From IMG/VR virus record IMGVR_UViG_3300027499_000009, positions 1 through 46,285 of that record: a stretch of 46,285 nt of DNA; one strand, written 5' to 3'. Source of the DNA: a virus. The translations under genes were made by a program, and so were the position numbers. Position 1 is the stretch's first letter. The number at the start of each line of letters is the position of its first letter. The notes under the pieces are model-generated. The model did no database searches. It was not told the origin of the DNA and saw nothing but the letters and a program-made list of their open reading frames with translations. Shown one piece after another: positions 1,652 through 41,661 of this stretch.

Positions 1652-4600
1652 ATGCTTCGTCGTGCCGACACCCCCAAGAAGTACGAGCATATCGACTTCA
1701 CTCCTCCCAAGTCGGTGGCGAACGCCGCCGAGAAGGGCTTGGAGTACCGGGAGAAGGCGTCCCCCTCTAACAAGGGCGGGTTGACCGTCTCCGAGGCAAG
1801 CAAGCAGGGCATCGGGTCGGGCGTGCAGCGTGCGGTGAACTTGAAGAACCGCAACACCCTCTCGCCTGATACCATCAAGCAAATGCACGGGTTCTTCTCC
1901 CGGCACGAGAAGAACAAGGGTGTGGCCCCCGAACACAAGTCCGAGCCGTGGAACGACAAGGGGAACGTGGCTTGGCTGTTGTGGGGCGGCGACCCCGGAC
2001 AAGCGTGGGCCGCGAAGGTGCTCGGACAGATGGAAGCCGCCGACGAGAAGGAAAAGGCCGTCAAGAAGGCTGCTATGGGCTTCGCCCGTGGCCGCACGGC
2101 TTCCACCCCGCCCACGCTTTACCACCTCACGACCCTTGCGGCTCTCCGCAAAATCATGCGGTCTAACCGGCTTCATACTGGCGCATTTCGCGCCGTGTCG
2201 TTCACCGAAGACCCTTCCCTGTTCGGGCAAGACTTTCAGTACGGTAACGACTTTGGGAACTCTACGGTTCGGATTGTGGTGGATGGTGCGAAACTTTCCC
2301 GAGATTATCCGGTCGAACCCCATGTTGATGGGCAGTCCGATAGGTTCCGTCGTGAGAAAGAGTGGCGGGTTCCGGGGCAGTCCGTTGATGAGTTGAGCCG
2401 GTATGTGAAGTGTGTGGAGGTTCTATCGCGGAGGCCCCACGACGAAACCGACCATTATTGGAAGCGGGTGGGTCTTGGGTGGGATCCGAAAAGAAAGGTT
2501 GATTTGCGGCAGAAAGTGTTGGATGAAGTCGTGAGCCTTGGGGAAAGCACCGGGTTCCGTGTTGTTGTGTCCCCCAAGCCCGGCGGTCGGGGGTGTGTGT
2601 CCTCGGACCTCGCCCGTGGCCGCACGGCTTCCGTGAACGGTGATGGTTCGTCGGTTGGGTTCTTCATCCCCCTGTCGGCGGAACTTGCCTCGCAGTACGA
2701 GGTGAAGCCCGAGGACACCTCGCCTCCGCATGTGACCTTCCTCTATGTGGGCAATGTCGCACCCGAGCAAGTGTCCACGTTCTTGCGGGTGGCACGCGGG
2801 GTGTTGCAGGACGCGCCCCCCGTGTTCGGGGTTCTGAACGGCGTGGACTCCTTCGTGCAGAAGGACAAGAACCAACGGGTGTTGTACAGCCGCGTGTCGT
2901 TCTCCCACGACCTCAAACCGTTGCGCGACCGCTTGTGGGCGGCGCTCACCGAGGCGGGCTTCAAGGTTGAGCAAGCGTTTCCCGCCTTCACCCCGCACGT
3001 CACCATTGAGTACCGGGACGGGTTGAACGACGCCGTTCTCGACCAAGCCGCCCCTTTGGGGTCTTGGGACTGTAAGACCATTGAGGTGTGGGGGCTCCCC
3101 AAGAAATACACCCTTCCCCTTGGTGGAAGGGGTGGCAAGCAAGCGCGCACGGCTTCCGGTATGTCCCTGTCGTTGGACGACCTCGGATACGGGAGCCTCA
3201 CGACGGACGAGGAAGCCTTGTTGCTCGCACCTTCGACGGCGTTCCCGGCAGAGGTTCTTGCCCTCATTCCGCAGGTGCCGTGCCCCGAGAACTCCTCCGA
3301 GGAGACGAGGCGCGAACTCGCCTACCTGCTTCGGTTGCAGCAGACGGCACGGCCCTATCTTGCCCAACAAGTAGTTGGGACCGACGAGAACGCTACGTCC
3401 ACCTTGGAGGCGTACTGTGCCAAACACGGGTTGGACGCAAGCGGTGTCCTCCCCGTAGTGCGTGCTGCCCGTTCGGTGCTTCTGCAAGTCAAGCGGCTCT
3501 ACAACCGCCCGCGCCCGTACCAACTGGCCGAGTACTTGGAGCCGGGGTTCCACCCCATGCCGTCTACGACGGCGCACACCCCGTCGTATCCGAGCGGGCA
3601 CTCGGCACAGGCGGTGCTCGTGGCCCTGCTCTTGTCGGGCCTCTACCCCGAACACCGGGAAGCGTTCATGGCTCTCGCCAAGGAGGTGGGGCAGCACCGC
3701 ATGATCGGCGGCTACCACTTCCCTTCGGACGTAGCCTACGGGGAGCAAATCGGGCGTGTGCTCTACGAGAGCATGGCCCGTGCTTCCGTGCGTACCGCCG
3801 CTGCCAAGTACAAGGACAAGAAGCAAGTCCCGAAGGCGGACGGGTCGGGCAAGACCACCGTGTACGTCTACTCCGAGCGGCAGGTGGCGAACCGGCACCG
3901 GGAGAAGGCCGAGCGGTTGGAGGACTTCAAGCCCGCGCTCGCGGAACTTCGCGCACAGGTCAAGAAAGACCTCGACAGCGACGACCCGAAGAAGAACTTG
4001 GTTGCCCTCGCCGTGGGGCTCATTGACGCGACCTATGAGCGGGTCGGCAACGACGAGAGCGCAGACAACGGGCACTACGGGGTCACCGGGTGGCTCCGTA
4101 AGCATGTCACGTTCAAGGGCAAGCGGGCCGTCATTCGGTACACGGGCAAGTCGGGCGTCAAGCACGAGAAGTCGGTGGACGACGAGGCCCTTGTTGGGGC
4201 CTTGAAGAAGTGCTGCGGCGACAAGGACGGGGAGGAGCAAGTGCTCTCCCTCGGGAAGCACGCGGTCACGTCGGGGGACGTGAACAAGTACCTCAAACCC
4301 TATGGCATCACCGCGAAAGACCTACGCGGGCTGCACGCGAACCGAGAAATGCAGGAACGCCTGCGGGCTATCCGTAGTAAGGGGCCGAAACTGCCCCGGC
4401 TCCGCAAGGAGCGCGACCCCATTCTCAAAGAGGAGTTCAAGCAGGCGTTGGAAGGTGCTGCCGAGGCCGTGGGGCATGAGCCCTCGACCCTGCGGAAGCA
4501 GTACCTTGTCCCCGGCATTGAGGACGCCTACATGAAGGACGGCACGGTGCCGCGTGACCTCACGGCGAGCACTCGCCGTGTCGCGGCCCTCTACTTGCGG

Positions 4601-6265
4601 GCCGCGAAGTCTGACGCCGAGCGTGAGGACGAGGAAGCCGAACGGCTTGTCAAGCCGGAACCCAAGTACAAGCCGCCCCGTGGTGACTTGCGCCGCCGTC
4701 GTGTTGATACGGAGCGGGACGACGACCCCGACAAGAAGCAGGACGACAAGGACAGGTCGCAGAACTACAAGGACGCTTCCGTTCGCGCCGTGGTTCAGCG
4801 TGTTGCTGCCGCGTGGTTGTTCAAGGTCGGGCAGGGCAACCCTTTGATGGAGCGGGCCAAGAAGGAGTTTGAGGCTTACGAAAAGAAGCACCCGGACACA
4901 GAACTTGATGTCAACACGTTCCTTGAACGGCTGGCACAACGCTCAAAGACCACTTCCGAGGGCTCAAACACGGACGCCGAAACCAAGGCCGACGCGGCGC
5001 ACTACGCCCAACAAGAACGGAAAGTCAAAACCGAGCGGGTGCAGAAACTTGTGGACAAGGTGAGCGCCGAGTGGGCCGAGTTGGAGAACTCGCTCCCTCT
5101 GACGAGCGAGAACCGTAAACGTATTTCGTCCTCCATTGAGTCGTACACCCCCAAACAGCGGGAGGAGTTCGCGAAGGCGTTCGCTTCTGCCCGTGAAGCG
5201 CATGTTCGCAAGTACTCCGACGAGGGTTACGACCCTGACGCGGTGAGCACCGCCCTTTTGGACATGGACGCCAAGTTCACGAAGGCCGACCCAAAGAGGG
5301 TCGCGGAACATGCCGTGGAGGTTATCTTCACCGACCGGGTGCTATTGAACCCCATGCTGCTCACGCCGGACGACCCTCTCTCTGACGACGAGGGCAAGGG
5401 CACGGCGGACCCAAAGAAGTCCGCTGCTCGGGTCAGTCAGTCTATTCAGCGGTTCTCCCGTGCCTCCAAGCGCGAGCGCGCAGAAATGTCCAAGCGCCTT
5501 GACGCGGCTATCCGTGAGGCTCCCGAAGGAACTGCAAAGCAAGAGGAGTTGCTTGCCGTCAGGTTCGGGCTTACCGCCGCAGAAGCACTTCACCCTATCA
5601 AAGAGGACGGGGACGACGAGGGCAAGGCAGACCAAGACCCCAAGCCTCCCAAGGGCATGTCAAAGGTCGAGTTCGGCCTCCTGCAACACCTCGCGGACGA
5701 CTCCGAAAAGTCCAGCGAACTGCTTGGGTTGTCCTTCCGTGCAAGCCGCAAGGACAAGTCCGCACAAGAGGACACGCGGAAGTTCGTCCGCGAAGCCACC
5801 CGCTCCATGAAGCCCGAGCAGATAAACAACCTGCTCCCCGAGGAAATGCAGTCCGCGTCATTGGCCGTTCGCAGCCTGCTCAAAGAAATGGCGTCTGACC
5901 GTGCTTCCTTCCGCAAGTCGAAGGGTAAGTCCACCGCCAAAGAGGACGCCGCTATCTCCGAGTACGAAGCCGAAATGGACGCCCTTGGCGACATGCTTGG
6001 GGAACGCCTCTCGGACCTCGTGGCGGACAGCGTGGGCCGGAAAGTCCAGCCCGAAGACGATGAGGTGGGTTCCGTCTACAAGAACATGGTGAAGAACCGC
6101 CCGAAGTTGAACGGCGGCAAGCCACCGTCCAAGAAGGACTTTGGTGCTTTCTTAGACGACCTTATGAAGTCTTTTCGCAAGTTGCTTGGGAACAAGGGCG
6201 TTACCGCCCACCTCCACCTTGCAGAACCGCCCCGTGTCTCGGTAGGGGGTCTATACCACTTCTAA
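1652..6265 (+). CDS. Giant polyvalent protein: ART-like, 2H phosphoesterase, PAP2 phosphatase, topoisomerase IB
   Basis: This 1537-residue protein has these domains in order. Residues about 35-130 form a domain I cannot name with certainty (FFSRHEKNK, WLLWGGD). Residues 155-245 look like an ADP-ribosyltransferase (YHLT, VSFTED, EKEWRV). Residues 330-485 are a 2H phosphoesterase of the LigT type, with HVT at 360 and 449. Residues 600-705 form a PAP2 phosphatase with all three motifs: K614-x6-RP, PSGH at 647-650, and H682-R-x5-H689-x3-D693. Residues 735-965 are a topoisomerase IB with the full catalytic set R797, K833, R892, H942 and Y951. The rest is a charged helical tail of about 560 residues. 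RTAS-like linkers mark the boundaries. Such multi-enzyme phage proteins are usually thought to be injected with the DNA; that role is inferred. The start ATG has AAGGTG upstream. Confidence 0.85.
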   Translation: MLRRADTPKKYEHIDFTPPKSVANAAEKGLEYREKASPSNKGGLTVSEASKQGIGSGVQRAVNLKNRNTLSPDTIKQMHGFFSRHEKNKGVAPEHKSEPWNDKGNVAWLLWGGDPGQAWAAKVLGQMEAADEKEKAVKKAAMGFARGRTASTPPTLYHLTTLAALRKIMRSNRLHTGAFRAVSFTEDPSLFGQDFQYGNDFGNSTVRIVVDGAKLSRDYPVEPHVDGQSDRFRREKEWRVPGQSVDELSRYVKCVEVLSRRPHDETDHYWKRVGLGWDPKRKVDLRQKVLDEVVSLGESTGFRVVVSPKPGGRGCVSSDLARGRTASVNGDGSSVGFFIPLSAELASQYEVKPEDTSPPHVTFLYVGNVAPEQVSTFLRVARGVLQDAPPVFGVLNGVDSFVQKDKNQRVLYSRVSFSHDLKPLRDRLWAALTEAGFKVEQAFPAFTPHVTIEYRDGLNDAVLDQAAPLGSWDCKTIEVWGLPKKYTLPLGGRGGKQARTASGMSLSLDDLGYGSLTTDEEALLLAPSTAFPAEVLALIPQVPCPENSSEETRRELAYLLRLQQTARPYLAQQVVGTDENATSTLEAYCAKHGLDASGVLPVVRAARSVLLQVKRLYNRPRPYQLAEYLEPGFHPMPSTTAHTPSYPSGHSAQAVLVALLLSGLYPEHREAFMALAKEVGQHRMIGGYHFPSDVAYGEQIGRVLYESMARASVRTAAAKYKDKKQVPKADGSGKTTVYVYSERQVANRHREKAERLEDFKPALAELRAQVKKDLDSDDPKKNLVALAVGLIDATYERVGNDESADNGHYGVTGWLRKHVTFKGKRAVIRYTGKSGVKHEKSVDDEALVGALKKCCGDKDGEEQVLSLGKHAVTSGDVNKYLKPYGITAKDLRGLHANREMQERLRAIRSKGPKLPRLRKERDPILKEEFKQALEGAAEAVGHEPSTLRKQYLVPGIEDAYMKDGTVPRDLTASTRRVAALYLRAAKSDAEREDEEAERLVKPEPKYKPPRGDLRRRRVDTERDDDPDKKQDDKDRSQNYKDASVRAVVQRVAAAWLFKVGQGNPLMERAKKEFEAYEKKHPDTELDVNTFLERLAQRSKTTSEGSNTDAETKADAAHYAQQERKVKTERVQKLVDKVSAEWAELENSLPLTSENRKRISSSIESYTPKQREEFAKAFASAREAHVRKYSDEGYDPDAVSTALLDMDAKFTKADPKRVAEHAVEVIFTDRVLLNPMLLTPDDPLSDDEGKGTADPKKSAARVSQSIQRFSRASKRERAEMSKRLDAAIREAPEGTAKQEELLAVRFGLTAAEALHPIKEDGDDEGKADQDPKPPKGMSKVEFGLLQHLADDSEKSSELLGLSFRASRKDKSAQEDTRKFVREATRSMKPEQINNLLPEEMQSASLAVRSLLKEMASDRASFRKSKGKSTAKEDAAISEYEAEMDALGDMLGERLSDLVADSVGRKVQPEDDEVGSVYKNMVKNRPKLNGGKPPSKKDFGAFLDDLMKSFRKLLGNKGVTAHLHLAEPPRVSVGGLYHF
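2082..2104 (+). repeat. 23-bp direct repeat, copy 1 (RGRTAS linker)
   Basis: The 23 bases coding for the ARGRTAS linker before the ADP-ribosyltransferase-like domain are repeated exactly at 2610-2632, before the 2H domain. Identity includes third codon positions, so the two linkers are recent copies or kept alike by recombination. Confidence 0.85.
2610..2632 (+). repeat. 23-bp direct repeat, copy 2 (RGRTAS linker)
   Basis: Exact copy of 2082-2104 at the next domain boundary of the giant protein, 528 bases downstream and in the same reading frame. Recombination between the copies would cleanly delete the ADP-ribosyltransferase-like domain. Confidence 0.85.
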
Positions 6266-6345: not shown

Positions 6346-7002
6346 ATGGCCCGTCTCACCCGCCAAGGGGCGCGCAACCTCACCGCTGCCCTCGACAACA
6401 TTGCCCAAGTCGTTCAGCACCGCGCTGCGATGCTCGGCCTCGACAAGCGCACGGCTACCGACTTCGCGTACCGCTGCGACCTCCTGTCGGACGCCATTGA
6501 GCGCACCGCCTCCGAGAACTTCCCCCTGCCCCGGCAGGCTGCGGAGAAGGGCAACGACGACGAGGGCATGAGTGTGGAGCACGGTGAGGGCGGGTTTGAC
6601 CCGAACCTCATTGGCGACGAGGTTCCCGGCCCGTTGGAGATTATCGAGCCCCCGAGCGAGCCGTGGATGGACGGGCACTTCACGCAGGAGAAGTACCACG
6701 TTCTTGGCGAGTTGCAGGAGGCGGGCGAACTTGGCCCGGTCCACCTCGCGTCCCTTCTGACCAAGGCTGCGGGCATCATTCTTGCCCAAGAGTCCGACAA
6801 GGAGGAGCAGGAGGAGGAGCAGCAGGAGGAGGTCAAGAAGCAGGCCAAGAAGGGCCAGCAGAAGGGCAAGGTTCCCCCGCAGTTCCTTGAGCAGCAGAAG
6901 AACAAGGCTGACGCCGAGGAGCAGCAGGAGGAGCAGCAGGAGAAGGGGGCCAAGAAGAAGGCTTCCGCCGCAAACGATTGGGGCTTCAACCTCTCTCGCT
7001 GA
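6346..7002 (+). CDS. Conserved phage protein with Glu/Gln-rich tail, head module
   Basis: This is a 218-residue protein. The first 70 residues are helical and include DFAYRCDLLSDAIE. The second half is very rich in Glu, Gln and Lys (runs of EEQQEE), and the protein ends in DWGFNLSR. The RBS GCAGGAG lies upstream of the ATG. It sits between the polyvalent gene and the head assembly genes and shares composition with the scaffold at 9297, so a virion or assembly role is likely. No enzymatic motif is visible. Confidence 0.65.
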   Translation: MARLTRQGARNLTAALDNIAQVVQHRAAMLGLDKRTATDFAYRCDLLSDAIERTASENFPLPRQAAEKGNDDEGMSVEHGEGGFDPNLIGDEVPGPLEIIEPPSEPWMDGHFTQEKYHVLGELQEAGELGPVHLASLLTKAAGIILAQESDKEEQEEEQQEEVKKQAKKGQQKGKVPPQFLEQQKNKADAEEQQEEQQEKGAKKKASAANDWGFNLSR

Positions 7003-7838: not shown

Positions 7839-9293
7839 ATGGCGTTCATGAAGTATGCCCGCGCACAGGTCATGCACCCCCGTATCACCGGGGCCGCGTG
7901 GCAGGGCATTCGCAAGCAAGCGTCGTCTGCCCCCACCGCGTCCAAGAACCTCGTCGCGCAGGCAGGCGAAATCCTCGGGGAGCAGTTCACCCCCGACCGC
8001 TACCTCCTTACGCATTGTTCGATTGTGGCGAGTGTGGACGTAGACACCGTGCCGAACGTGAAGTTGGGCACGGAGAAGGTCGGCTCTCGCACCGTCACCC
8101 GCAAGTGGGCTGACTACTACATCAAGCCCGAGTGCGCGCAGTTCGTGAACAACAACGGCGACTCGTGGTCCCGTGAAGTGCTCTTGAAGTCGTTCCGCAC
8201 CTTCATTGGGGCGCACAACTTCTTGGAGCATGTGCAGATTGAGGAGCAGTCGAAGGGGCGCATTATCGACGCCGTGGCCCGCGACATTGGCCCCTCGGTC
8301 TATGTGGACATTCTCGTTGCGACCGACCGCAAGCACGCGCAGTTGGTGCAGGACATTGAGAGCGGCAAGATGGGCACGCTCTCTATGGGCTGCTCCTGCG
8401 AGTTCACGCTCTGCTCTCAATGTGGCAACGTCGCGGTGGACGAGACGGACCTCTGCGAGCATGTCAAGTACTCCAAGTTGAACACCTTCTTCGACGCCCG
8501 TGGGCAGCGCCGGGTCATTGCCGAACTCTGCGGCCACTCCTCGCACGGCGAGACGGGCGGCGTCCACTTCATTGAGGCGTCGTGGGTCGCGGTTCCCGCC
8601 TTTGCAGGGGCGGTGATGCGGAACATTCTCGACCCGGCTTCCGTTACGCCCGAGAAGGCGAAGCAGTTCTCCGAGGTGCTCTCTGCTCCCCCTGCCGAGT
8701 GGGGAACGAACATTCTGCGTGCGGCTTCCGAGCACCGTGTCGCGCAGCAGTTTGACTTCGGGGACATGGGCGACGACGAAGGCGGTGAGGGTGAGGGGGA
8801 GGCCGACGCTGCGGCTCCCGAGAAGCCCGCAAGCCCGTTCGCAGAAATCGAGGACGACCTCTACAACGCGGTCAAGACCCGTGTGAAGGACCGCTTGGAG
8901 AAGGAACTCCGCGAGCAAAACATTGAGAAGGCTCTTGCGACCCCCACGGCTCCCAACGATAGCATTATCAAGGAAGCAACGGCGAAGTTCGCACGCCAAG
9001 CCTACGCAAACACGGTCAACACGCTCGTGCGGGTAGCGTCTTCGGACGCGGCCCTCGTCAATGGGCTTGCAGAAATCGACCGTTCTTTTGGGCTTCGCGT
9101 TCCACAGTCTGTCTATCGCACCGCCCTTATGGTAGGTGCGACGGACAGGTATTCGTCTTTTGACGAATACCTCCGGGCTTGCCACAAGCAGGCACGGAGA
9201 GTTCTCACCCCTTCCGAACTTCGGGTCGCATACCGAATCGGCAACTTGCTCACCCGAAAGGGGAGCGTTCAACCCCCGCAACCGAGGAAATAA
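7839..9293 (+). CDS. Prohead maturation protease with an inserted zinc knuckle
   Basis: This 484-residue protein has a core (residues 45-260) that fits the herpesvirus-assemblin-like prohead proteases. It has a GAHNFLEH segment with candidate His126/His131, then VYVDILVATD, then GTLSMG with the likely nucleophile Ser182. Directly after Ser182 comes a Cys cluster (C185, C187, C192, C195, C206, H208) that probably binds zinc. Residues 290-484 are acidic then helical and could be a scaffold-like delta region removed on maturation. The gene lies immediately upstream of the scaffold and two genes before the major capsid protein, the usual order. The exact catalytic triad is inferred. Confidence 0.78.
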   Translation: MAFMKYARAQVMHPRITGAAWQGIRKQASSAPTASKNLVAQAGEILGEQFTPDRYLLTHCSIVASVDVDTVPNVKLGTEKVGSRTVTRKWADYYIKPECAQFVNNNGDSWSREVLLKSFRTFIGAHNFLEHVQIEEQSKGRIIDAVARDIGPSVYVDILVATDRKHAQLVQDIESGKMGTLSMGCSCEFTLCSQCGNVAVDETDLCEHVKYSKLNTFFDARGQRRVIAELCGHSSHGETGGVHFIEASWVAVPAFAGAVMRNILDPASVTPEKAKQFSEVLSAPPAEWGTNILRAASEHRVAQQFDFGDMGDDEGGEGEGEADAAAPEKPASPFAEIEDDLYNAVKTRVKDRLEKELREQNIEKALATPTAPNDSIIKEATAKFARQAYANTVNTLVRVASSDAALVNGLAEIDRSFGLRVPQSVYRTALMVGATDRYSSFDEYLRACHKQARRVLTPSELRVAYRIGNLLTRKGSVQPPQPRK

Positions 9294-9296
9294 GCC

Positions 9297-10805
9297 ATGC
9301 GTGAGCGTCTGACTTGGAAGCGCGGCGGGGCAACCAATGCTCCCGCTCGGCGTGCCTCTGCCCACCCCGCCTACCCTGACGAGGGTGCGGCCAACCCCGC
9401 GTACCAGCCTGACCCCGAGGCCGACGCCTACGAGAACGGTGACCCGTCCTCTTGGGCCGAAGACCCGCACCCCGGCCCGTACCCGCAGTCGGCCCACCCG
9501 GCGTACCCCGACGAGGGGCCTGCCTCCCCGGCTTACATTGCCAAGCAGGGCTCCGTTGCCTTTGCCTTGGAGCGCAAGGCCGCGAAGTGCGTGCGTTTGG
9601 CTTCCGCCATGCTCGGCCCGAACGCTTCGCAGCACGAGGTCGAGAACCAAGCCCTCGCGTTCATGGACATGAGCGAGCGCGCCCTCCGAGCCTCCCTCTC
9701 CCGCCTCGCCGCACAGGACGAGGGCGATGAGAGCGACGAGCATGAGCAGGAGGAGAAGGAGAAGGCCAAGAAGGCTGCTTACCTCCGTCGCCGCGCCCAA
9801 CAAGAGAAGAAGGACGAGGGTGAGGACGAGGGCACCGAGGAGGAGCAGCAGGAGGTCAAGGGTGGCAAGAAGGCCGCTCTCGCCAAGGCCGCTTACCTTC
9901 GCCGCCTCGCGCAGCAGATTGAGGAAGAAGTCGAGGAAGACGAGGGTGAGGACGAGGACGAGGGTGAGGAGGAGGAGCAGCAGGAGGTCAAGGGTGGCAA
10001 GAAGGCTTCCGCCCTCGACGCCCGCCTTGCTCGCATTGAGCGCCTTCTGACCGCTGGCCTTCCCATGTCCTACATGCAGGAAGAAGCCATGTCTCCCGAG
10101 GAAGCCATGCTGGAAGCCATGCTCAACGAGGAGCAGGGTGCCGAGCATGAGGCACAGTCCTTGGAGGAAATGCTGCTTGAAGAAATGCAGCATGAGGCGC
10201 AGCAGCAGGCCGTGGCCGAGCCGTTCGGCATGATGGCGCAGCAACTTGCCATGCAGGGTGACGCTTCCGGCCCGCAGATTGGCAAGCCTGCCATGCAGGG
10301 CATGAAGGCGCAGCAGCACATGAGCCCCGAGGCGCAGCAGGCCGAGGCGCAGTTGGCCGAAATGCTCCAAGAGGAAGGCATGGGTGGAGTGCTTGGTGCC
10401 GAGTACCAAGACGCTGCCGAGGCCATGCTCATTGACCCGAGCGGGGACAACTACGTTGACCCCGTTTCCGGCATGGTCGTTGACCCGAGCGGTGACGACT
10501 ACGACGACGGCATGATGAGCGACCCGATGGGCCTCATGGACGGTGGCATGGGCGACGACGACGCCCTTCTTGCCTCCCTCTTTGGCGACGAGTCCATGAA
10601 GTACGCCAAGCAGGCCCCCGCCGACGCCGAGGAGCAGGAGGAGGAGCCGAAGAAGGCGCAGCAGAAGTCCGCGTCCCTTCGCCCGCAGCCCAAGAAGGCA
10701 ACCACGGGTGCCACTCGCCTTGGGGGCATCACGAAGGAAGCCGCCGAGGTCAGCGACCTGTCGAAGTTGTGGGAGTCGGCTCCCGATGTGAGCAAGTACT
10801 TCTAA
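9297..10805 (+). CDS. Scaffold / prohead core protein
   Basis: This 502-residue, very acidic, low-complexity protein is rich in Glu, Gln, Met and Ala. It has internal repeats: HPAYPDEG twice (near residues 22 and 70), KAAYLRRxAQQ twice, EEQQEVKGGKKA twice, and VDPSGD-type units near 380-400. It ends in a short ordered motif, LSKLWESAPDVSKYF, probably the capsid-binding tip. GAGGAAA precedes the ATG. The position between the protease and the capsid genes, the helical composition and the C-terminal tip all suit a scaffold. A strong terminator follows. Confidence 0.72.
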   Translation: MRERLTWKRGGATNAPARRASAHPAYPDEGAANPAYQPDPEADAYENGDPSSWAEDPHPGPYPQSAHPAYPDEGPASPAYIAKQGSVAFALERKAAKCVRLASAMLGPNASQHEVENQALAFMDMSERALRASLSRLAAQDEGDESDEHEQEEKEKAKKAAYLRRRAQQEKKDEGEDEGTEEEQQEVKGGKKAALAKAAYLRRLAQQIEEEVEEDEGEDEDEGEEEEQQEVKGGKKASALDARLARIERLLTAGLPMSYMQEEAMSPEEAMLEAMLNEEQGAEHEAQSLEEMLLEEMQHEAQQQAVAEPFGMMAQQLAMQGDASGPQIGKPAMQGMKAQQHMSPEAQQAEAQLAEMLQEEGMGGVLGAEYQDAAEAMLIDPSGDNYVDPVSGMVVDPSGDDYDDGMMSDPMGLMDGGMGDDDALLASLFGDESMKYAKQAPADAEEQEEEPKKAQQKSASLRPQPKKATTGATRLGGITKEAAEVSDLSKLWESAPDVSKYF

Positions 10806-11768: not shown

Positions 11769-12644
11769 ATGTCTGTCGCAAACAGCGTCAAGCAGAAGAT
11801 GATCTCGGAGTACATCAACACTCCGCAGGGTCGTGCCAAGTTGGCCGCGTCCATGACGCAGCCGCTTCGTCTGCGCCGTGACTACATGGCGGTCGGTCGC
11901 AAGACCTTCCTCGTGGAGCAACTGCCGGACGGCGCGCTGCCGATTTACGACAAGGATCCCGACGTGACCGCGTTCGTGGTCGGTGAGGAAGGCGAGAACA
12001 TCGTCGCAATCACCAAGCCGCGCCGCGTCATTTTCCCGCTCTTTGAGATTGCGTCCAACCCCGAGATCCCGCTCACGCAAATCAAGGAGCGTCGTTTCGA
12101 CCTCATTGAGCGCGCACAGGACTTGGCTCGGGCGCAAATCCAAGCAGCCGAGGACGAGCGGGTGTTCTCCGTTCTCGACGCCATCGCCACCAACGGGTTC
12201 GACTCGGTTTCGAGGCAGTTCAACCCCGACATTCCGGTTGTCGCCCCCATCAGCGGCGCGGTGCTCGCGGACGCCTACGCGGAGATTGAGCGCAACGACC
12301 TCCGGGTTGCTCGCGTGTTCATGAACGCTCGGGACTACGCGGACCTCCGCAAGTTCGGTCGTGACATTCTCGACATCGAGAGCCAGCGCGAACTTCTCAA
12401 GACGGGCCTCATGGGCACGCTTTGGGGCGCGCAAATCATCGTGTCGCGTCTCGTCCCGGTCGGCACCGTGTACGTCTGCTGCGAGCCCGAGATGTTCGGT
12501 CGGATGCCCGTCCGTACCGAGTTGACCGTGCTCTCTGCCGACGACCCGAAGGCCCGCACCATCGGCTTCTCGGTGTTTGAGAATATCGGTATCGGGGCCT
12601 ACAACCCCAAGGGCCTCACGCGCTTGACCATCACGCGCGCGTAA
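11769..12644 (+). CDS. Major capsid protein, HK97 fold
   Basis: This 291-residue protein resembles short HK97-fold capsid proteins. Features include the N-terminal helix with REYINTPQG-type sequence, RPRRVIFPLFEIASNPEI, the helix LIERAQDLARAQIQAAEDERVF, the late segment LWGAQIIVSRLVPVGTVYVC, and the typical end FSVFENIGIGAYNPKGLTRLTITRA. The N-terminus is short, which fits a separate scaffold. The terminator at 12667-12705 follows directly. Its last seven residues, RLTITRA, recur at the end of the downstream LAGLIDADG gene. Confidence 0.88.
   Translation: MSVANSVKQKMISEYINTPQGRAKLAASMTQPLRLRRDYMAVGRKTFLVEQLPDGALPIYDKDPDVTAFVVGEEGENIVAITKPRRVIFPLFEIASNPEIPLTQIKERRFDLIERAQDLARAQIQAAEDERVFSVLDAIATNGFDSVSRQFNPDIPVVAPISGAVLADAYAEIERNDLRVARVFMNARDYADLRKFGRDILDIESQRELLKTGLMGTLWGAQIIVSRLVPVGTVYVCCEPEMFGRMPVRTELTVLSADDPKARTIGFSVFENIGIGAYNPKGLTRLTITRA
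12621..12644 (+). repeat. 3' end of capsid gene, mimicked at 13697-13720
   Basis: These 24 bases code for RLTITRA and the stop. They match 13697-13720 at 19 of 24 positions, and every difference is synonymous (four third positions plus TAA versus TGA). Confidence 0.8.
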
Positions 12645-12705: not shown

Positions 12706-12757
12706 AGGGTGGACACCGTGGAGCATTTACGGTACGTTTTCGGAAACGTAGGTGCCC

Positions 12758-13720
12758 ATGCGAGCCGTACCGTGTCCCGTGTCCCCCGAAACCCTGCGCG
12801 ACCTCTACGCCGTGCAGAAGCAGACCGACCAAGAGATAGTCGAGCACCTGTGCGCGCAAGGCCACGATGCGACCTTGAAGCGGGTGCGCGCATGGCGACA
12901 ACGGTTCGGCATTGACACCGTGCCACGGTGGGCACGGCACGAAGTCACCCCTATCGAGGGCACGCTACGGTCGTTGCTCGTAGGCTCCATGCTCGGTGAC
13001 GGGAGGCTCGTCCACCGCACCAAGGCTACGCACTACGAGGAGTCGCACGCAGGGAACCAACTCGACTACTTGAAGTGGAAGGCCGAGGTGTGGGGGTCGG
13101 CATGGGTACGGGACTTACGCGAGGTGCCCGACACACGGGGGTTTCGCACCTACCGCATGTGGACGCACGCCCATGCTTCGCTGAACGAGTGGCAATCCCT
13201 GTTCTACGCGAGCCGGGAGAAAGGGTGGAAGCGGTTCTTGCCCGAGGTGGCAGACCTCGTTGACCCCTTTGCTCTCGCGGTGTGGTTCCTTGACGACGGG
13301 CACGCGGGGTGGTGGCCCGAGTTCGCGTTCGGGGCTGACGAGCCTTCTCGGCAGGTTGCACTCGCAGCCCTCGACAGGTTCGGGCTGCACCCCCGGTGGC
13401 TCCCCCGCAAGGGAAACACGGGGGTGTTCATCCTTGAAGGTGAGGCCCAAGCAGAGCACTTCCTCGCGCTTGTCCGTCCCTTCGTGCCCGCGTGCATGAC
13501 CTACAAACTCGACTTTGGGTTCCTTGGGCGGGGCTATCAGATGCGACAGGTCATGGACGAAGCCGTGCTGCGTCGGTTGGCGGGAGCGGGTGTGCCTTTG
13601 CGAGACATGGCCCGCCGACTTGGAGTGGGGGCGTCCACGGTGTCCCGGTGGCTCCGTGCTCTCGGCGTCGAGCATCCCCGCAAGGTAGGACGGCCCCGCC
13701 TGACGATCACCCGCGCTTGA
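12758..13720 (+). CDS. LAGLIDADG homing endonuclease with helix-turn-helix ends
   Basis: This protein of about 320 residues has two LAGLIDADG helices: LLVGSMLGDG near residue 75 and ALAVWFLDDG near residue 175, each with an Asp at the catalytic place. The segment between them (HYEESHAGNQLDYLKWK) is typical of the LAGLIDADG_2 type. Helix-turn-helix-like segments lie at the N-terminus (residues 10-50) and the C-terminus (MARRLGVGASTVSRWLRALGV). The start is ATG 12758, with GTG 12752 as an alternative; no strong RBS is visible. It is free-standing between two terminators, right after the capsid gene, and ends in RLTITRA exactly as the capsid protein does. Its likely role is to cut a capsid-gene allele lacking it. 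Confidence 0.85.
   Translation: MRAVPCPVSPETLRDLYAVQKQTDQEIVEHLCAQGHDATLKRVRAWRQRFGIDTVPRWARHEVTPIEGTLRSLLVGSMLGDGRLVHRTKATHYEESHAGNQLDYLKWKAEVWGSAWVRDLREVPDTRGFRTYRMWTHAHASLNEWQSLFYASREKGWKRFLPEVADLVDPFALAVWFLDDGHAGWWPEFAFGADEPSRQVALAALDRFGLHPRWLPRKGNTGVFILEGEAQAEHFLALVRPFVPACMTYKLDFGFLGRGYQMRQVMDEAVLRRLAGAGVPLRDMARRLGVGASTVSRWLRALGVEHPRKVGRPRLTITRA
13697..13720 (+). repeat. Capsid-like 3' end fused to the homing endonuclease
   Basis: It codes for RLTITRA plus stop, in frame with the endonuclease, and is the diverged partner of 12621-12644. The upstream flank (HPRKVGRP) no longer matches the capsid gene. Confidence 0.8.
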
Positions 13721-13869: not shown

Positions 13870-15171
13870 ATGAAGCGCACCCGCACAGCGGCAGACGAAG
13901 TTCGCCTTGTCGCCTACTTCGGCAAGACCCCTGACCTCACGCCCTCTGCCAAGTCTCGCTATGAGTGGGAACTTGCCGGGGACGACGCGCTCACCCCCGC
14001 TGCCGAGGCGGCGCTTGTGGACAACCTGCGGAAGCGTATCTTTGGGCCAAAGACCGTAGGGCTCGTGGTTCGCATCCCCTTGTTCGGCAAGTCGCCCGTC
14101 TCGTTCTCGGGCGTGAGCCTGCAAGACCTCCCGAAGAAGTTGCAGGGTGAGGTTGCGAGCGTCGTGGTCCCCTCGGGGGGCTCACACACCATTAGTCACC
14201 CCAACCCCACGAACATGCCCGAGGCACCGCAAGGCACCATGCTCCGCGAGTTCTCCACACCCGCTCCTGACCCTGACGGCCTCACTTCCCGCACCACGAA
14301 GTTGGCGGCGAGCCTTCCGCACGGCTCTCCCTTGCGGCGGTTCCTTGTGGCGACCGTGAAGGAGGCGTGTCCCGGTCACCTTGGGAACCCCATGCAAGCC
14401 CCTCCCGGCTTGTCCGTGGCGAGCGCACCCGGCATGTCCTGTGGTTCTTGCACCTTCTTCTGCCCGACCCGCAACGTCTGCAAGGCGTTCGGGGACTACC
14501 CCGTGTCTGCCGACATGGTGTGCTCCGCATGGGAGGGTGAGGGCGAACTCTCCGAGTTCGGGTCGCTCGTGGCTTCGGTAAGGGTGGCGAAGGGCACCCC
14601 GCGCTCCATGTTGGAGCAGAACCCGACCGCGCAGGTCGAGGTGATGCCCGACGCGGGCATCACCGTCATTCGCTACAACGGGGCCAAGACGGGCAAGCCC
14701 GCCGCCGCCGTCTACTCGGGCCGTAGTGACAAGCCCTTGTGGGACTACTTCTTTGGAAGCACGTTGGCGCGGGAGCAGTACATTGACGACCAAGTGGAAA
14801 AGAGCAAGGCTGCTATGTCCGCTCGGCAAGAGCGGGCGCAGGCCAAGCGGGACTTCCAACACGGCTTGAAGGACGGCGACATTCTCTACTCGTCGTGGGG
14901 CTACGACCAAACGAACATCAACTTCTACGAAGTGGTGGGCGTCGTCGGCAAGCAAGTCTTTATCCGCGAGGTCGAGTCCAAGGTCGTTCGCTCCGAGCGC
15001 GGGTCCGACTATGTGGTGGCCGTACCCGGTCGCTACACGGGCGCAATCTTGAAGAAGGTTCCGCAGAGGGGCTACCGGGGCGAGCCGTATGTGAAGGTGA
15101 ACGACTCGCAGAATGCTTACCCGTGGGACGGCAAGCCCAAGTACGAGACGGCGGGTGGCTTCGGCCACTAA
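13870..15171 (+). CDS. Conserved phage protein with a Cys cluster and a SWGYDQTN domain
   Basis: This is a 433-residue protein. The N-terminus carries the basic motif RTRTAADEVRLVAYFG, like the linkers in the polyvalent protein. Residues about 190-220 hold a five-Cys cluster (CGSCTFFCPTRNVC, later VC) that may bind zinc or an iron-sulphur centre. The C-terminal 120 residues contain DILYSSWGYDQTNINFYEVV, a domain I recall as shared by phage and plasmid proteins of unknown role. Residues 295-330 are coiled coil. A virion or injected role is possible. It follows the candidate late promoter. Confidence 0.65.
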   Translation: MKRTRTAADEVRLVAYFGKTPDLTPSAKSRYEWELAGDDALTPAAEAALVDNLRKRIFGPKTVGLVVRIPLFGKSPVSFSGVSLQDLPKKLQGEVASVVVPSGGSHTISHPNPTNMPEAPQGTMLREFSTPAPDPDGLTSRTTKLAASLPHGSPLRRFLVATVKEACPGHLGNPMQAPPGLSVASAPGMSCGSCTFFCPTRNVCKAFGDYPVSADMVCSAWEGEGELSEFGSLVASVRVAKGTPRSMLEQNPTAQVEVMPDAGITVIRYNGAKTGKPAAAVYSGRSDKPLWDYFFGSTLAREQYIDDQVEKSKAAMSARQERAQAKRDFQHGLKDGDILYSSWGYDQTNINFYEVVGVVGKQVFIREVESKVVRSERGSDYVVAVPGRYTGAILKKVPQRGYRGEPYVKVNDSQNAYPWDGKPKYETAGGFGH

Positions 15172-30806: not shown

Positions 30807-32309
30807 ATGCCCGTAGTCTGTCCTCATTGCTCTCACACCTTTGGTGGGAGCAAGGTTTCACCCCGGCACATAGCGAACTGCCCGAGTTGGCCCCGCACTC
30901 TCACGGAGCCGTGCCTGTGCGGCTTTCGGGGGGAGAGCGACAACAAACTGAAAGCCCACAAGCGGGCTTGCCCCTCATGGCAGGGACGGGACAAGAAGGC
31001 CGTTCGTGCTGAACGCTTGCGGGAGAACTCCCTCGCCAAGCACGGCGTCGAGAACCCCATGCGCTCGCCCGAGGCTGACCGAAAGCGCGCTGAAACCAAC
31101 CTTGCCCGCTACGGGGCCGAGAACCCGTTCGCCCGTGGGGCGAGCACCTACGAGAAGGTGCAGGCTTCGTTAGAGGGCAAGCGACCCGTGCTTCGGGGAG
31201 AGCAGAACCCCTTCGCCCGCCCCGAGGTGCAAGAGAAAATCCGCGACACCATGCGGGAACGCTACGGGGCCGAGAACCCGCAGCAAGTTCCCGACATTCG
31301 TGCGCGTACCACCGCGACCTCCCAAGAACGCTACGGGGGAGTTCTTCTCTCGTCTCCCGTGCTTGCAGAGAAAGCCCGTGAGACGAACCTCGCCCGCTAC
31401 GGTGAAGCGTTCCCGCAGCGCACCGAGGAGGTAAAGGCCAAGCAGCAAGAGACGAACCTTGCTCGCTACGGTGTGCCTTGGACGAGCATGAACCCCGAGG
31501 TGCGGGCGAAGCAGTTGGAGGCCCACCACGCGAAGTGGGGGTCGCACTACTTCGCCTCCGACGAGGGCAAGGCGCACCTTCGGGCGGCTCTCGTGGAGCG
31601 TTTCGGGGTCGAGTTCCCCGGTGCTATCGAGGGTCATTGGGAGAAGGCCGTGCAGACCTTCAAGGAGCGGTACGGGGTCGAACACCCGCTGCAACTCGCA
31701 GAGTTCCTCGACAAGCGCACCGACACGACCTTGGCGAAGTACGGGGTCGAGAATGTCATGCAAGATGCGGAGGTCATGGCGCGGTCGCAGGAAACCAACA
31801 GGGAACGCTATGGCTCACCTTTCTTTGTCTGCTCCGACGCCTTCAAGGCATGGAGCCAAAGCCTGTATGGGACAGACCACCCCATGCAGAACCCCGAGTA
31901 TGCCCGTCAGCACTTGGAGAAGATGTCTCCCTCACGAGGTGGGCCGAACGGGCTTGAACGCAAGGTCATGTCACTTGCTCCCGAAGGGTCGCTCCTGTTC
32001 ACGGGGGACTTCTCTTTTTGGCGGTGGCTCCCGGCTCTCGCTCGGCACAAGAACCCCGACTTCATTGCTCCCGGCCCCGACGCGACGAACCCGAAGAAGG
32101 GTGTCACCCGCGTGGTCGAGGCGTTCGGGGACTTTTGGCACTCGCGCATGTTCACCGGGAAAGTCCCGTGGGAGCATGAGCAGGAACTCATTGCCGCCTA
32201 CGCGGAGGTGGGCATCGAGTGCTTGGTTCTGTGGGAGTCCGAAGTCCTCTCCGCGCCCGACGAGGTGCGCGCACGGCTCGCGGATTTTCTTGCGCCATGC
32301 CCCCCGTGA
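30807..32309 (+). CDS. Vsr-like homing endonuclease with zinc fingers and RYG repeats
   Basis: This 500-residue protein has AGGAGG before the ATG. The N-terminal 50 residues hold two zinc-finger-like units (CPHCSHTF with HIANC, then CLCGF with HKRAC). Residues 70-385 contain about a dozen 20-30-residue repeats built on RYGxENP..xPE, of the kind found in phage homing-type nucleases (DUF7487-like). The C-terminal domain has KNPDFI, then VVEAFGDFWHSR and CLVLWESEVL, which is the Vsr/EDxHD nuclease layout. It lies just downstream of the split-intein locus with a T-rich, promoter-like gap (30745-30806). It probably targets a nearby conserved gene or tRNA region. Confidence 0.75.
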   Translation: MPVVCPHCSHTFGGSKVSPRHIANCPSWPRTLTEPCLCGFRGESDNKLKAHKRACPSWQGRDKKAVRAERLRENSLAKHGVENPMRSPEADRKRAETNLARYGAENPFARGASTYEKVQASLEGKRPVLRGEQNPFARPEVQEKIRDTMRERYGAENPQQVPDIRARTTATSQERYGGVLLSSPVLAEKARETNLARYGEAFPQRTEEVKAKQQETNLARYGVPWTSMNPEVRAKQLEAHHAKWGSHYFASDEGKAHLRAALVERFGVEFPGAIEGHWEKAVQTFKERYGVEHPLQLAEFLDKRTDTTLAKYGVENVMQDAEVMARSQETNRERYGSPFFVCSDAFKAWSQSLYGTDHPMQNPEYARQHLEKMSPSRGGPNGLERKVMSLAPEGSLLFTGDFSFWRWLPALARHKNPDFIAPGPDATNPKKGVTRVVEAFGDFWHSRMFTGKVPWEHEQELIAAYAEVGIECLVLWESEVLSAPDEVRARLADFLAPCPP

Positions 32310-32352
32310 CCTCCCTTCGCGGTAAGCCCGCTATGGGTATCGTGCTTCGTAT

Positions 32353-32429
32353 TCCCGAGTAGCGCAGTTGGTTAGCGCAACGGACTGTTAATCCGTGGGC
32401 CGCTGGTTCGAGTCCAGCCTCGGGAGCCA
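32353..32429 (+). tRNA. tRNA-Asn (GTT)
   Basis: Acceptor stem TCCCGAG/CTCGGGA, D-loop AGTTGGTTAGCGC, anticodon loop CTGTTAA giving anticodon GTT, T-loop GTTCGAG, discriminator G and an encoded CCA. It is 77 bases long and complete. Confidence 0.95.
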
Positions 32430-32438
32430 TTTCCGTGG

Positions 32439-32528
32439 GGTGAGGTGGCCGAGTGGTCTATGGCGCACGCTTGGAAAGCGTGTGTGCTCTCAAAGGCACC
32501 GTGGGTTCAAATCCCACCCTCACCGCCA
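32439..32528 (+). tRNA. tRNA-Ser (GGA)
   Basis: Acceptor stem GGTGAGG/CCTCACC, a long variable arm (GTGTGCTCTCAAAGGCACC), anticodon loop with GGA, T-loop GTTCAAAT, discriminator G and an encoded CCA. It is 90 bases long. TCC, its best codon, is frequent in the structural genes here. Confidence 0.95.
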
Positions 32529-36081: not shown

Positions 36082-36957
36082 ATGTCCGACACCGTGCTTC
36101 GTCAACGGCTCATTCGTGTCGCTTCGCAGTTGCCGAAGGGCAGCGCGGAGCGCCGTCAAGTCCTCGCCCTCCTCATGCCCGACACCTTGCGGAGCAAGGT
36201 CGCCGCCAACCAAGAGACGCAGGACTTCGTGGAGTGGGTTGTGAACACGACCCCCAACCCCATGACCGAAGCCGAAGTCGCCAAGTTCTTGAAGAACACG
36301 CTTCGCATGGAGATTCAGCCGCCGAAGCCGCCGAAGCCGCCCGGCACCGCTCGTTTCGCCGTTGGCGACCGTGTGAAGATCAAGAAGGACAAGCACAAGG
36401 ACGAGGCGACTTCCGGCCCGTACATTGAGTTCAATGGCAAGATTGGCACCGTTACGGCGGTGGTCAAGAACGAGCAGGGTGCCAAGTACGACGACGCCCT
36501 CGTGAAGTTGGACAGCGGCCCGAGCGAGCCCGTTCGCTTCCCGCTTGCGCTCAAAGCCACCGGGGTGGGCATTGGCAAGTACACCCCCCCTTACGTCATT
36601 GAGGGCTCCGTGCAGGTAGAAATGATCTACTACCGCACCGAGGGTGCCCCCGTGCGGGACGAGCAGCAACTTGTGGTCGAGCAGTACATGGGCCGCGCCC
36701 GTCAGGGTGAGCGGCGCTCCATGAACTACTACTCGGGCCACTTGTTCGGCGCGGCTCTCAACAAGGAAGGCGAACTGTACTTCTCGATGAACCCGCAGCA
36801 GCGCATGTCGATTGACCCCGAGGAGGGGTACGAGTTCCGCTCCTTCAACCCCAAGACCGGGAAGGTGCTCTACATTGGTCGAATGAAGACCGACCGCCCG
36901 CAGGGTTGGGACAAGGAGTTGGAGAAGATGCGCGCAGCGGCGGGCATCCCCGAGTAG
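36082..36957 (+). CDS. Virion-type protein with a KOW/SH3-like domain
   Basis: This is a 291-residue protein. The N-terminus LRQRLIRVASQLPKGSAERRQVLALL is the basic helical type that recurs at domain edges in this window. After a Pro-rich linker (near residue 80), residues 88-160 contain FAVGDRVKIKKDK and GKIGTVTAVVKNEQG, typical of a KOW/SH3 barrel. The C-terminal half has YFSMNPQQRMS and a closing helix. AAGGAG lies upstream of the ATG. It is the first gene of the neck/tail operon; an internal or ejected protein is possible. Confidence 0.6.
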   Translation: MSDTVLRQRLIRVASQLPKGSAERRQVLALLMPDTLRSKVAANQETQDFVEWVVNTTPNPMTEAEVAKFLKNTLRMEIQPPKPPKPPGTARFAVGDRVKIKKDKHKDEATSGPYIEFNGKIGTVTAVVKNEQGAKYDDALVKLDSGPSEPVRFPLALKATGVGIGKYTPPYVIEGSVQVEMIYYRTEGAPVRDEQQLVVEQYMGRARQGERRSMNYYSGHLFGAALNKEGELYFSMNPQQRMSIDPEEGYEFRSFNPKTGKVLYIGRMKTDRPQGWDKELEKMRAAAGIPE

Positions 36958-40013: not shown

Positions 40014-40651
40014 CTGAACTCCGCATCGAGTGCCTTGCCCTGCGCGCCGACGCCCCTGACCTTGGGCTTGCCCTTCGTCGGGGTGAAGTGGCGTGGCTCC
40101 CCTTGGGGAGCCTCGACACGTCCGCGTGCCTTCGTGCGCTGAAAAACATGGGCGCGGTATCGGTAGTGTCTGCACAGAGGTGCGCCACCATGCGAAATCC
40201 TGCTCCCCCCGCCTCCCGCCTGACGCGGAAGCCGCCAATCAAGCGCATCCCCGCCGCAGCCCCCGTAGCCCCTCTTGCGCCACAAGACATTGACGCCCGC
40301 ATTCAGCAAGCCGTGGACGGGGCCGTGGACCGTCTTGCGGAACGCCTCTTTGCCGCTCTCGGGAACGCCCCGTCCCCCAAGGCCGCATTGGACGAAGAAG
40401 CAATCTCGCGGGCCGTGTCCTCTGCCGTGTCCTCCGTGTTGGCCCAACAAGGGGCGGGTGGCACGGTTGCAGGCTCTACGCCTCGTGTCGCGGGGCCTGC
40501 CGACCCCGTGTATATCCCAACGGGTATTGTCTCTGATACACCCGTAGACTTTCAAGTTGCAGCGCAAGCCGCCGACGCGGGCGACCTCGCAGGAGCAGCC
40601 TCGGCACTACGCAAGACCCGCACCCGCAAGACCACAGGAACCACCGAATGA
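40010..40651 (+). CDS. Hypothetical structural-operon protein
   Basis: This is a 213-residue protein. Residues 1-60 form a small domain (LGLALRRGEVAWLPLG, GAVSVVSAQRC). A helical Ala/Pro linker follows (residues 85-150) and then a C-terminal helix with RKTRTRKTT. The first part has the pattern of a short domain that I recall in large phages next to tail genes. It is translationally coupled at both ends (ATGA). The role is unknown. Confidence 0.6.
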   Translation: MTELRIECLALRADAPDLGLALRRGEVAWLPLGSLDTSACLRALKNMGAVSVVSAQRCATMRNPAPPASRLTRKPPIKRIPAAAPVAPLAPQDIDARIQQAVDGAVDRLAERLFAALGNAPSPKAALDEEAISRAVSSAVSSVLAQQGAGGTVAGSTPRVAGPADPVYIPTGIVSDTPVDFQVAAQAADAGDLAGAASALRKTRTRKTTGTTE

Positions 40652-41661
40652 GCACCGACAAGAACGCCAAGCCCAACCGTGGAACGGGCCTCGACCTCGG
40701 CACCATGAACATCGTCTCTGCCCGCAGCAAGGCGGGCAAGGTCGAGTTCTCCCGTGTCCGTGACGCCTTCCTCGACCTCGACGTTGGGGCAAAGAAAATG
40801 CTCAAACTGTCGGGCGTGTCTTACGTCGAGCGCGGCGAGAGCATTGTTGTCATTGGTGACGCCGCTATGGAAATGGCGAACGTCTTTGGCCGGGAGGCCC
40901 GTCGCCCCCTCTCTCGCGGCTTGGTTGCCGCCGGGGAGTTGGAAGCCCTTGAAGTGCTCGGGGTCATGGTGAAGAACGTCCTCGGCCCGCCCGTGGAGCC
41001 GAACGAGGTCTGTTACTTCTGCATCCCCGCTGCGCCCGTGGACGAGGACCGGGACGTGGTGTACCACCGGGGAGTGTTTGAGCGCATTGTTACCGAGTGC
41101 GGCTACAAGGCCATTGCGTCCAACGAGGCAATGGCAATCATCTACTCGGAGACGGCGAACGACGGCTTCTCGGGCCTCGCTATCTCCTTCGGCAGCGGCA
41201 TGTGTAACGTCGCCCTCGCCGTCAATGGCATTGAGGGCTTCGCGTTCTCCGTGGCCCGTGGGGGAGATTGGATTGACGAGGGTGCGGCGAGGGCGGTGGG
41301 CAGCACCCGCTCCCGCATTTGTGCCTTGAAGGAGAAGGGTTTCGACCTCATGGCCCCGGTGGGGCGGGAGCAGGAAGCCCTCGCGCTTTATTACAAGGCG
41401 CTCATTGAGTATTGCTTGGAGAGCACGGCCCGCGAGTTCCTCCGCATCAAGGACAAGTTCTCGCTTCCGAAGGCTATCCCCTTCGTGGTGTCGGGGGGTA
41501 CGAGCCTCCCGACGAACTTCATCCCCTTCCTCACCTCGGTCTTTGACCGCATGAAGAAGAAGTTTCCGTTGGATGTCAGCGAGGTTCGCCACGCTTCCGA
41601 CCCTATGAACGCCGTGGCGCGTGGGCTGCTCATTCAAGCCCTGCAAGAGTACGACGACTGA
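40648..41661 (+). CDS. Actin-fold ATPase (ParM/MreB-like)
   Basis: This is a 337-residue protein with the actin/Hsp70 superfamily motifs: phosphate-1 GLDLGTMNIVSA near residue 13; the connector NEAMAIIYSE near 160; phosphate-2 LAISFGSGMCNVALAVNG near 177; GGDWIDEGAARAV near 208; and the adenosine motif PFVVSGGTSLP near 280. It is well within the length of ParM or FtsA-like proteins. It lies inside the tail operon (ATGA overlap with the gene before), unlike plasmid or cell-shape actins. It could form filaments that position virions or DNA, or act as an assembly ATPase. Confidence 0.85.
   Translation: MSTDKNAKPNRGTGLDLGTMNIVSARSKAGKVEFSRVRDAFLDLDVGAKKMLKLSGVSYVERGESIVVIGDAAMEMANVFGREARRPLSRGLVAAGELEALEVLGVMVKNVLGPPVEPNEVCYFCIPAAPVDEDRDVVYHRGVFERIVTECGYKAIASNEAMAIIYSETANDGFSGLAISFGSGMCNVALAVNGIEGFAFSVARGGDWIDEGAARAVGSTRSRICALKEKGFDLMAPVGREQEALALYYKALIEYCLESTAREFLRIKDKFSLPKAIPFVVSGGTSLPTNFIPFLTSVFDRMKKKFPLDVSEVRHASDPMNAVARGLLIQALQEYDD

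Follow-up and report, generated by a model that had tools for sequence, protein, structure and literature searches.

A multi-enzyme gene in the head cluster of a probable giant phage may encode a virion-cargo polyprotein built around a topoisomerase IB

The stretch of DNA analysed here (an IMG/VR virus record of 46,285 bases, hereafter the window) contains a real and intact gene, maintained under purifying selection, for a protein of 1537 residues in which a predicted topoisomerase IB is joined to several other enzyme modules. We hold it to be somewhat probable that the product is a virion-cargo polyprotein, composed of exchangeable enzyme cassettes that carry a short tag and are arranged around the topoisomerase; packaging, ejection, the function of the tag and the substrates are the parts of this proposal that we infer. 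It is supported by the position of the gene in the head cluster, the exchange of modules among relatives, the enrichment and placement of the tag, purifying selection, the predicted folds of the PAP2 and topoisomerase IB modules, and the flexible junction modelled between these two. Points against it are the lack of the strict tag in the window protein, the many short inter-module gaps that hold no tag, and the phages of the lineage without topoisomerase IB in this gene.

Table 1. Coordinates of the features discussed, with the evidence on which each assignment is based (aa, residues of the 1537-residue protein).
Feature	Position	Strand	Basis
Polyvalent, putative cargo gene, 1537 aa	1652..6265	+	open frame; fused relatives L002, L003; purifying selection
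N-terminal helical domain, aa 5-136, PHROG 2859-like	1664..2059	+	kept in 134 IMG/VR stretches; AlphaFold
Tag 1, ARGRTAS, R148, first 28-nt repeat copy	2077..2104	+	motif scan, repeat
Orphan module, aa ~152-318, putative ART fold (preliminary description)	2105..2604	+	no credible relatives; low pLDDT
Tag 2, ARGRTAS, R324, second repeat copy, 528 nt downstream, in frame	2605..2632	+	motif scan, repeat
2H phosphoesterase module, aa 326-498, H360 + H449	2627..3145	+	Pfam; L002 relative; separate 2H genes in L172, L164
Tag 3, RTAS, aa 499-502	3146..3157	+	motif scan
PAP2 phosphatase module, aa 505-706	3164..3769	+	Pfam; class A acid phosphatase fold match, Z ~17
Tag 4, RTAA, aa 714-717, PAP2-TopoIB junction	3791..3802	+	motif scan, model
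Topoisomerase IB module, aa 717-965; R797, K833, R892, H942, Y951	3800..4546	+	Pfam, alignment, fold
Tag 5, RRVAALYLR, aa 975-983	4574..4600	+	motif scan
Conserved charged element after topoisomerase, aa 984-1042 (~60 aa)	4601..4777	+	38 profile hits
Tag 6, RVAAAWL, aa 1050-1056	4799..4819	+	motif scan
C-terminal region, 330 aa, aa 1065-1394	4844..5833	+	conserved in relatives
Small conserved downstream gene	6346..7002	+	homolog fused to C-region in L004
Prohead (head maturation) protease	7839..9293	+	PHROG 18299, E 2.5e-13
Probable scaffold protein, tag-like segment KCVRLASAMLG	9297..10805	+	position, acidic composition; function inferred
Major capsid protein (MCP)	11769..12644	+	PHROG 2522, E 2.7e-52; relatives on contigs up to 618 kb

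Results

Integrity of the gene

The gene forms a single open frame from ATG to stop. A preliminary description of the window had already reported a multi-domain gene of this length, which was borne out by the intact frame and by the signature of purifying selection. Compared with its fused relatives L002 and L003, the protein is 63-65% identical overall and up to 93% identical in the topoisomerase. The dN/dS values in these comparisons were 0.09-0.14 for the N-terminal domain, the 2H module, the topoisomerase and the charged element, 0.16-0.27 for PAP2 and 0.29-0.37 for the C-terminal region. Separate genes for the modules do occur in some relatives; however, the concern raised in the preliminary description, that a chimeric assembly or a frameshift had fused separate genes, is refuted by the independent fused proteins with a common module order on the IMG/VR contigs L002 and L003 and by the low dN/dS of the modules (0.09-0.27).

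Three enzyme modules

The assignment of a 2H phosphoesterase was confirmed at the level of profiles and motifs. A LigT-like domain at residues ~344-466 matched the Pfam profiles 2_5_RNA_ligase2 (E 2.9e-12) and LigT (E 6.4e-9), and contains two HVT motifs of the H-x-[TS] type, headed by H360 and H449.

Likewise, the assignments of a soluble PAP2 phosphatase and of a topoisomerase IB with its five catalytic residues, both made in the preliminary description, were confirmed by profiles, motifs and an AlphaFold model of residues 501-985 (mean pLDDT 84), which was used for the fold comparisons. The PAP2 domain (residues 612-703) matched its Pfam profile with an E value of 3.3e-16 and the acid phosphatase 7f18 at E 3e-15 in a phmmer search of PDB sequences. 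The three PAP2 motifs are K-x6-RP at residue 614, PSGH at 647 and R-x5-H-x3-D at 683; in the third, the usual serine is replaced by histidine, while the arginine, histidine and aspartate are retained. All three motifs were found in nine of ten long PAP2 sequences. The predicted fold superimposed on soluble acid phosphatases with Z scores of 16.5-17.6 (rmsd ~3 over ~184 residues), and vanadium haloperoxidases matched it at similar Z. The module lies inside the polypeptide, as it mostly does in the relatives, rather than behind a signal peptide for secretion.

The catalytic core of the topoisomerase (residues 747-949) was detected with Pfam at E 4.7e-22, and the Deinococcus topoisomerase IB 2f4q was matched in the phmmer search of PDB sequences. 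Further, the five residues listed in Table 1 line up with the catalytic pentad of the vaccinia and variola enzymes and are invariant across a 15-row alignment. The modelled fold matched bacterial topoisomerase IB 3m4a with a Z score of 22.8 and an rmsd of 2.5 over 217 residues. The model gave residues 713-719, at the PAP2-topoisomerase junction, a pLDDT below 50, consistent with a flexible link.

Conserved regions outside the enzymes

Five features had been overlooked in the preliminary description: the N-terminal domain, the element that follows the topoisomerase, the C-terminal region, the junction motif and a 28-nt repeat. The N-terminal domain is predicted to be all-helical (AlphaFold pLDDT mostly 87-98), and phages of Vibrio and Synechococcus, among others, encode relatives of it in addition to those counted in Table 1. 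A whole-model search of the PDB, which included the unreliable orphan module, yielded nothing for it at E <= 0.001. Some of the profile hits of the charged element lie in proteins that lack a topoisomerase; also, some phages of the lineage have no topoisomerase IB in the putative cargo gene. One or the other of these two modules was present in 13 of the 13 records tested.

The charged element and the C-terminal region are the most constant non-enzymatic parts of the protein and adjoin the protease and the scaffold, and the C-terminal region diverges as structural filler would (44-45% identity to relatives). These observations would suit an inner-head core protein of structural or packaging type that remains in the virion or works while heads assemble; its topoisomerase would act on DNA while it is being packaged, and its other enzymes would be passengers with an assembly role or none. 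We regard this explanation as unlikely, as the supposed passengers (2H, PAP2, CCA-type and Ntn-like modules) are variable and enzymatic, with active sites kept intact under selection, a pattern that delivery to the host would explain better.

Module exchange among relatives

The cargo reading draws on the way in which the modules are exchanged among loci of the lineage. L003 has the order N-terminal domain, PAP2, topoisomerase IB, charged element and C-terminal region, and L002 has the same order with a CCA-adding-type nucleotidyltransferase and a 2H module between the N-terminal domain and PAP2. In L004, the N-terminal domain and PAP2 are followed by an Ntn-hydrolase-like module and the topoisomerase, and the protein stops in a tag just after the charged element; the C-terminal region, joined to the small gene, follows as a gene of its own, so that the arrangement of the window is split at the post-element tag. 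L005 combines PAP2, other sequence, the N-terminal domain and the topoisomerase, and both L021 and L028 combine a CCA-type module, PAP2 and the topoisomerase.

Modules are encoded as separate genes in L035, L012, L164 and L172. In L035, the N-terminal domain, the Ntn-like module, the topoisomerase IB and an element-bearing protein are four genes. On L172, from the 618-kb contig, a portal-like gene (called by eye) precedes a gene for the N-terminal domain, a 2H gene and a gene that joins the Ntn-like module, topoisomerase, charged element and C-terminal region; here a tag begins the N-terminal-domain gene and another ends the 2H gene.

About six distinct relatives (the window, L002, L003, L004, L005/L069 and L021-L023/L028) have PAP2 and topoisomerase IB in a single polypeptide, and their fusion is therefore a recurrent feature of the lineage. 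The polyvalent-protein reading of the preliminary description is upheld; the swapping and separation of the modules among relatives, and the tag at many junctions and ends, had gone unseen.

Position in the head gene cluster of a probable giant phage

Downstream of the putative cargo gene lie the small gene, in relatives a gene of ~190 residues, the protease, the probable scaffold and the MCP; about 40 loci, located by way of their MCP, share this order. Relatives of the MCP were encoded in 485 stretches, the best 80 of which were 87-99% identical and came from contigs of up to 618 kb. The nearest named relatives were those of LR745208.1 (485 kb, 85%), Tunturi_5 (309 kb, 48%) and Bacillus phage G (497 kb, 39%). 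These contigs make it very probable that the window derives from a giant phage, whose lineage is a distant relative of Bacillus phage G. Among metagenome-assembled bins, the MCP had no more than two matches, one of them labelled Actinomycetota, which is too little to assign a host.

The fixed position of the gene between portal-like and head genes in relatives also bears on a further explanation, namely a late cytoplasmic multi-enzyme protein, fused for co-expression and never present in the virion, in which the tag is no more than a short helix or a scar left by fusion. Giant phages often have long fusion proteins, and packaging is read here from genes; this explanation can draw upon both points. 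The conserved position speaks against it, as does the occurrence of the tag at the termini of proteins unrelated to this one, and we assign it a low probability.

Other genes of the window were also recorded. Directly after the MCP gene, a LAGLIDADG homing-endonuclease-like gene with a C-terminal HTH (12752-13720, +) ends in residues RLTITRA, which repeat the last residues of the MCP, as if it had been inserted there. Another homing-endonuclease-like gene (30807-32528, +) contains three DUF7487 stretches and is followed by tRNA-Asn and tRNA-Ser. Along its full length, the product of the gene at 40648-41661 (+) matches the actin-like Pfam family Volactin (PF25216, E 9.3e-74).

A short tag at module borders and protein ends

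Relaxed forms of a short motif, R[VT]A[AS], recur at the module borders of the window protein, with seven overlapping hits to the expression compared with 0.47 in shuffled versions; the strict form, R[VIL]AxR[YFW], was absent from this protein. We counted the strict form in 2282 non-redundant ORFs, taken from the lineage and from phages with the N-terminal domain by crude ORF calling, and found 44 copies vs. 3.3 in shuffled sequences, while permuted or substituted control motifs gave 2-17 copies in the same set. Of these 44, 20 were no more than 25 residues away from a protein end, where 5.7 would be expected. The extended consensus reads [SL][AP]xRVAxR[YFW]LxA.

Most topoisomerase IB modules have a tag, in its strict or a looser form, ahead of them, and most charged elements have one behind. 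Within proteins that carry modules, the density of the motif was 3.3 times as high outside the modules as within them (P 3e-5), although no more than 17 of 40 short inter-module gaps held it. As a small and weak control, stretches of Tunturi_5, phage G and Myrna had no tags vs. 0.02-0.12 expected. The probable scaffold has a conserved segment, KC[VI]R[LI]ASAMLG, which resembles the tag. A lineage-wide portable tag, RVAxR[YFW]L, borne at the ends of many proteins that are otherwise unlike one another, would load enzymes into the capsid or mark them for cutting there, with the cargo polyproteins as tagged cassettes around the topoisomerase; this would amount to a cargo-loading code of a tailed-phage head, an interpretation that we put forward tentatively, at somewhat below even chances.

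Two genes of the window start with tag-like sequences, MKRTRTAADEV (13870-15171, +) and RLIRVASQL (36082-36957, +), and are candidate cargo genes. On the 618-kb contig, a C39-like peptidase of 292 residues (L101:12641-13519, -) has a strict tag, RVARRFLEKK, at its C-terminus. A second, longer tag type suspected from single examples, RLAxxNPxLRxxLLPLL, was discarded, as a dedicated pattern matched nothing.

The orphan module, its flanking repeat and a possible RNA-repair role

The ART-like domain of the preliminary description was not confirmed. Residues 146-325 had no credible relative in phages, plasmids, IMG/VR, PDB sequences or the collected loci, and their best Pfam match, to Tpt1/KptA, was sub-threshold (E 0.16). 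Tpt1/KptA is a family of ART-fold RNA 2'-phosphotransferases. The AlphaFold model of this part, made without relatives, had a pLDDT of ~30-60 and was unusable; residues compatible with ART occur at the motif level only (YHLT - SFT - EKEW, for H-x-T / SFT / E-x-E), and the ART call amounts to a motif-level guess.

The module is bracketed by an in-frame direct repeat of 28 nt whose copies are identical at 26 positions and encode the tag ARGRTAS. As both copies are in frame, recombination between them would excise the module cleanly. No exact copies of the 22-nt core of the repeat were found elsewhere in IMG/VR. Long direct DNA repeats at tags were also considered as a general feature, which did not hold in long ORFs of the loci. 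Synonymous divergence varies among modules (dS 0.44-2.07), as expected of a mosaic.

The weak Tpt1 match is one of several hints at an RNA-repair kit that would be delivered by the virion and mend host-cut tRNAs at once, a proposal compatible with virion cargo. In it, the 2H module would open cyclic phosphate ends, a Tpt1-like ART would strip 2'-phosphates, the CCA-type enzyme found in relatives would rebuild tRNA ends and PAP2 would remove phosphates. CCA-type nucleotidyltransferases (Pfam PolyA_pol) in L002, L007 and L028, a match to the CPD type of fungal tRNA ligase in L052 and the two tRNA genes of the window are in line with such a kit. However, the Tpt1 match falls short of significance, the gene itself showed no module for an RNA ligase or kinase, and the PAP2 and Ntn-like modules fit poorly, which leaves this specific role rather improbable.

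Discussion

Our preferred reading remains that of a virion-cargo polyprotein, which we favour because of the position and conservation of the gene and of the precedents set by T4 targeting sequences, ejection proteins, polyvalent proteins and the vaccinia topoisomerase. In this model, topoisomerase IB, the charged element and the C-terminal region would form a near-constant core around which independent enzyme modules are strung. Expressed from the head gene cluster, the product would travel inside the particle and leave it together with the DNA. The modules would act as cassettes, each bordered by a short tag, and where cassettes are fused, as in the window, the junctions would keep the tag. 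The tag would most likely mark proteins for loading into the prohead, for cutting by the neighbouring prohead protease, or for both, and the present data fit either role. After ejection, the topoisomerase may ease torsional stress in the genome as it enters or is transcribed early; the targets of the 2H and PAP2 modules may be phosphate esters of host defence, such as cyclic or 2'-5' nucleotide signals or cleaved RNA ends. Relaxation of the incoming genome and clearance of nucleotides, as the preliminary description had suggested, are plausible functions, with delivery by the virion read from gene context.

Several known systems share parts of this arrangement. A possible parallel is offered by encapsulin cargo-loading peptides, short terminal peptides that load cargo into an HK97-fold shell; the tag of the window's lineage has N-terminal and internal copies too. 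The polyvalent proteins of phages and conjugative elements (Iyer et al. 2017, PMC5512222) are likewise long multi-domain proteins of portal/terminase phages, with mixed enzymes, including 2H, encoded near head genes. With at least two distinct domains in one phage polypeptide, the window protein fits this class in its composition and, judging by gene context, may likewise be delivered to the host; it differs in its PAP2 module, of which that paper makes no mention, its near-constant topoisomerase core and the tag repeated at junctions and termini, and no metallopeptidase domain was detected in it, unlike in polyvalent proteins. In T4, with its capsid targeting sequences and internal proteins, and in giant phages with ejection proteins (PMC5694885), short peptides direct proteins to the prohead, proteins are ejected with the DNA, and a prohead protease is encoded in the cluster, a set of likenesses that for the window is read from genes. 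The T4 capsid targeting sequence comprises 10-20 N-terminal residues that are removed by the protease, whereas the tag described here has another sequence and is also internal and C-terminal; it may still work alike.

The topoisomerase shares its catalytic pentad and fold with the IB enzymes of bacteria, poxviruses and the jumbo phages Lu11, NCTB, RSL1 and PaBG, the NCTB and Lu11 records matching at only ~26% identity. In contrast with the known enzymes, it resides in a head-cluster polyprotein and has a charged element of its own. Vaccinia topoisomerase I counts among the enzymes listed for the virion (PMC1540416); in a limited search of the open-licence literature, we found no paper on a topoisomerase IB ejected from a phage virion. 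The PAP2 module resembles the class A bacterial acid phosphatases (PhoN, PhoC, 7f18) in its predicted soluble fold and its three motifs, and departs from them in the serine-to-histidine replacement and in being embedded in a polyprotein of intracellular type.

Polyvalent proteins and jumbo-phage topoisomerases IB are already known (PMC5512222, PMC7824862). PAP2 is mentioned in neither of these papers, and the PAP2-topoisomerase combination looks undescribed. In a limited search of the open-licence literature, we found neither this fusion described, nor a topoisomerase core kept nearly constant within a head cluster, nor a tag that recurs at junctions and termini.

If the tag works as its placement suggests, giant-phage genomes could be searched for the proteins shipped with their DNA, which are otherwise learned only by proteomics, and the tag might provide a means of bringing proteins of choice into very large capsids. 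The polyprotein also suggests that, in some giant phages, a topoisomerase and phosphoesterases may be among the earliest enzymes to be put into the cell, and early counter-defence by virion enzymes would become directly testable.
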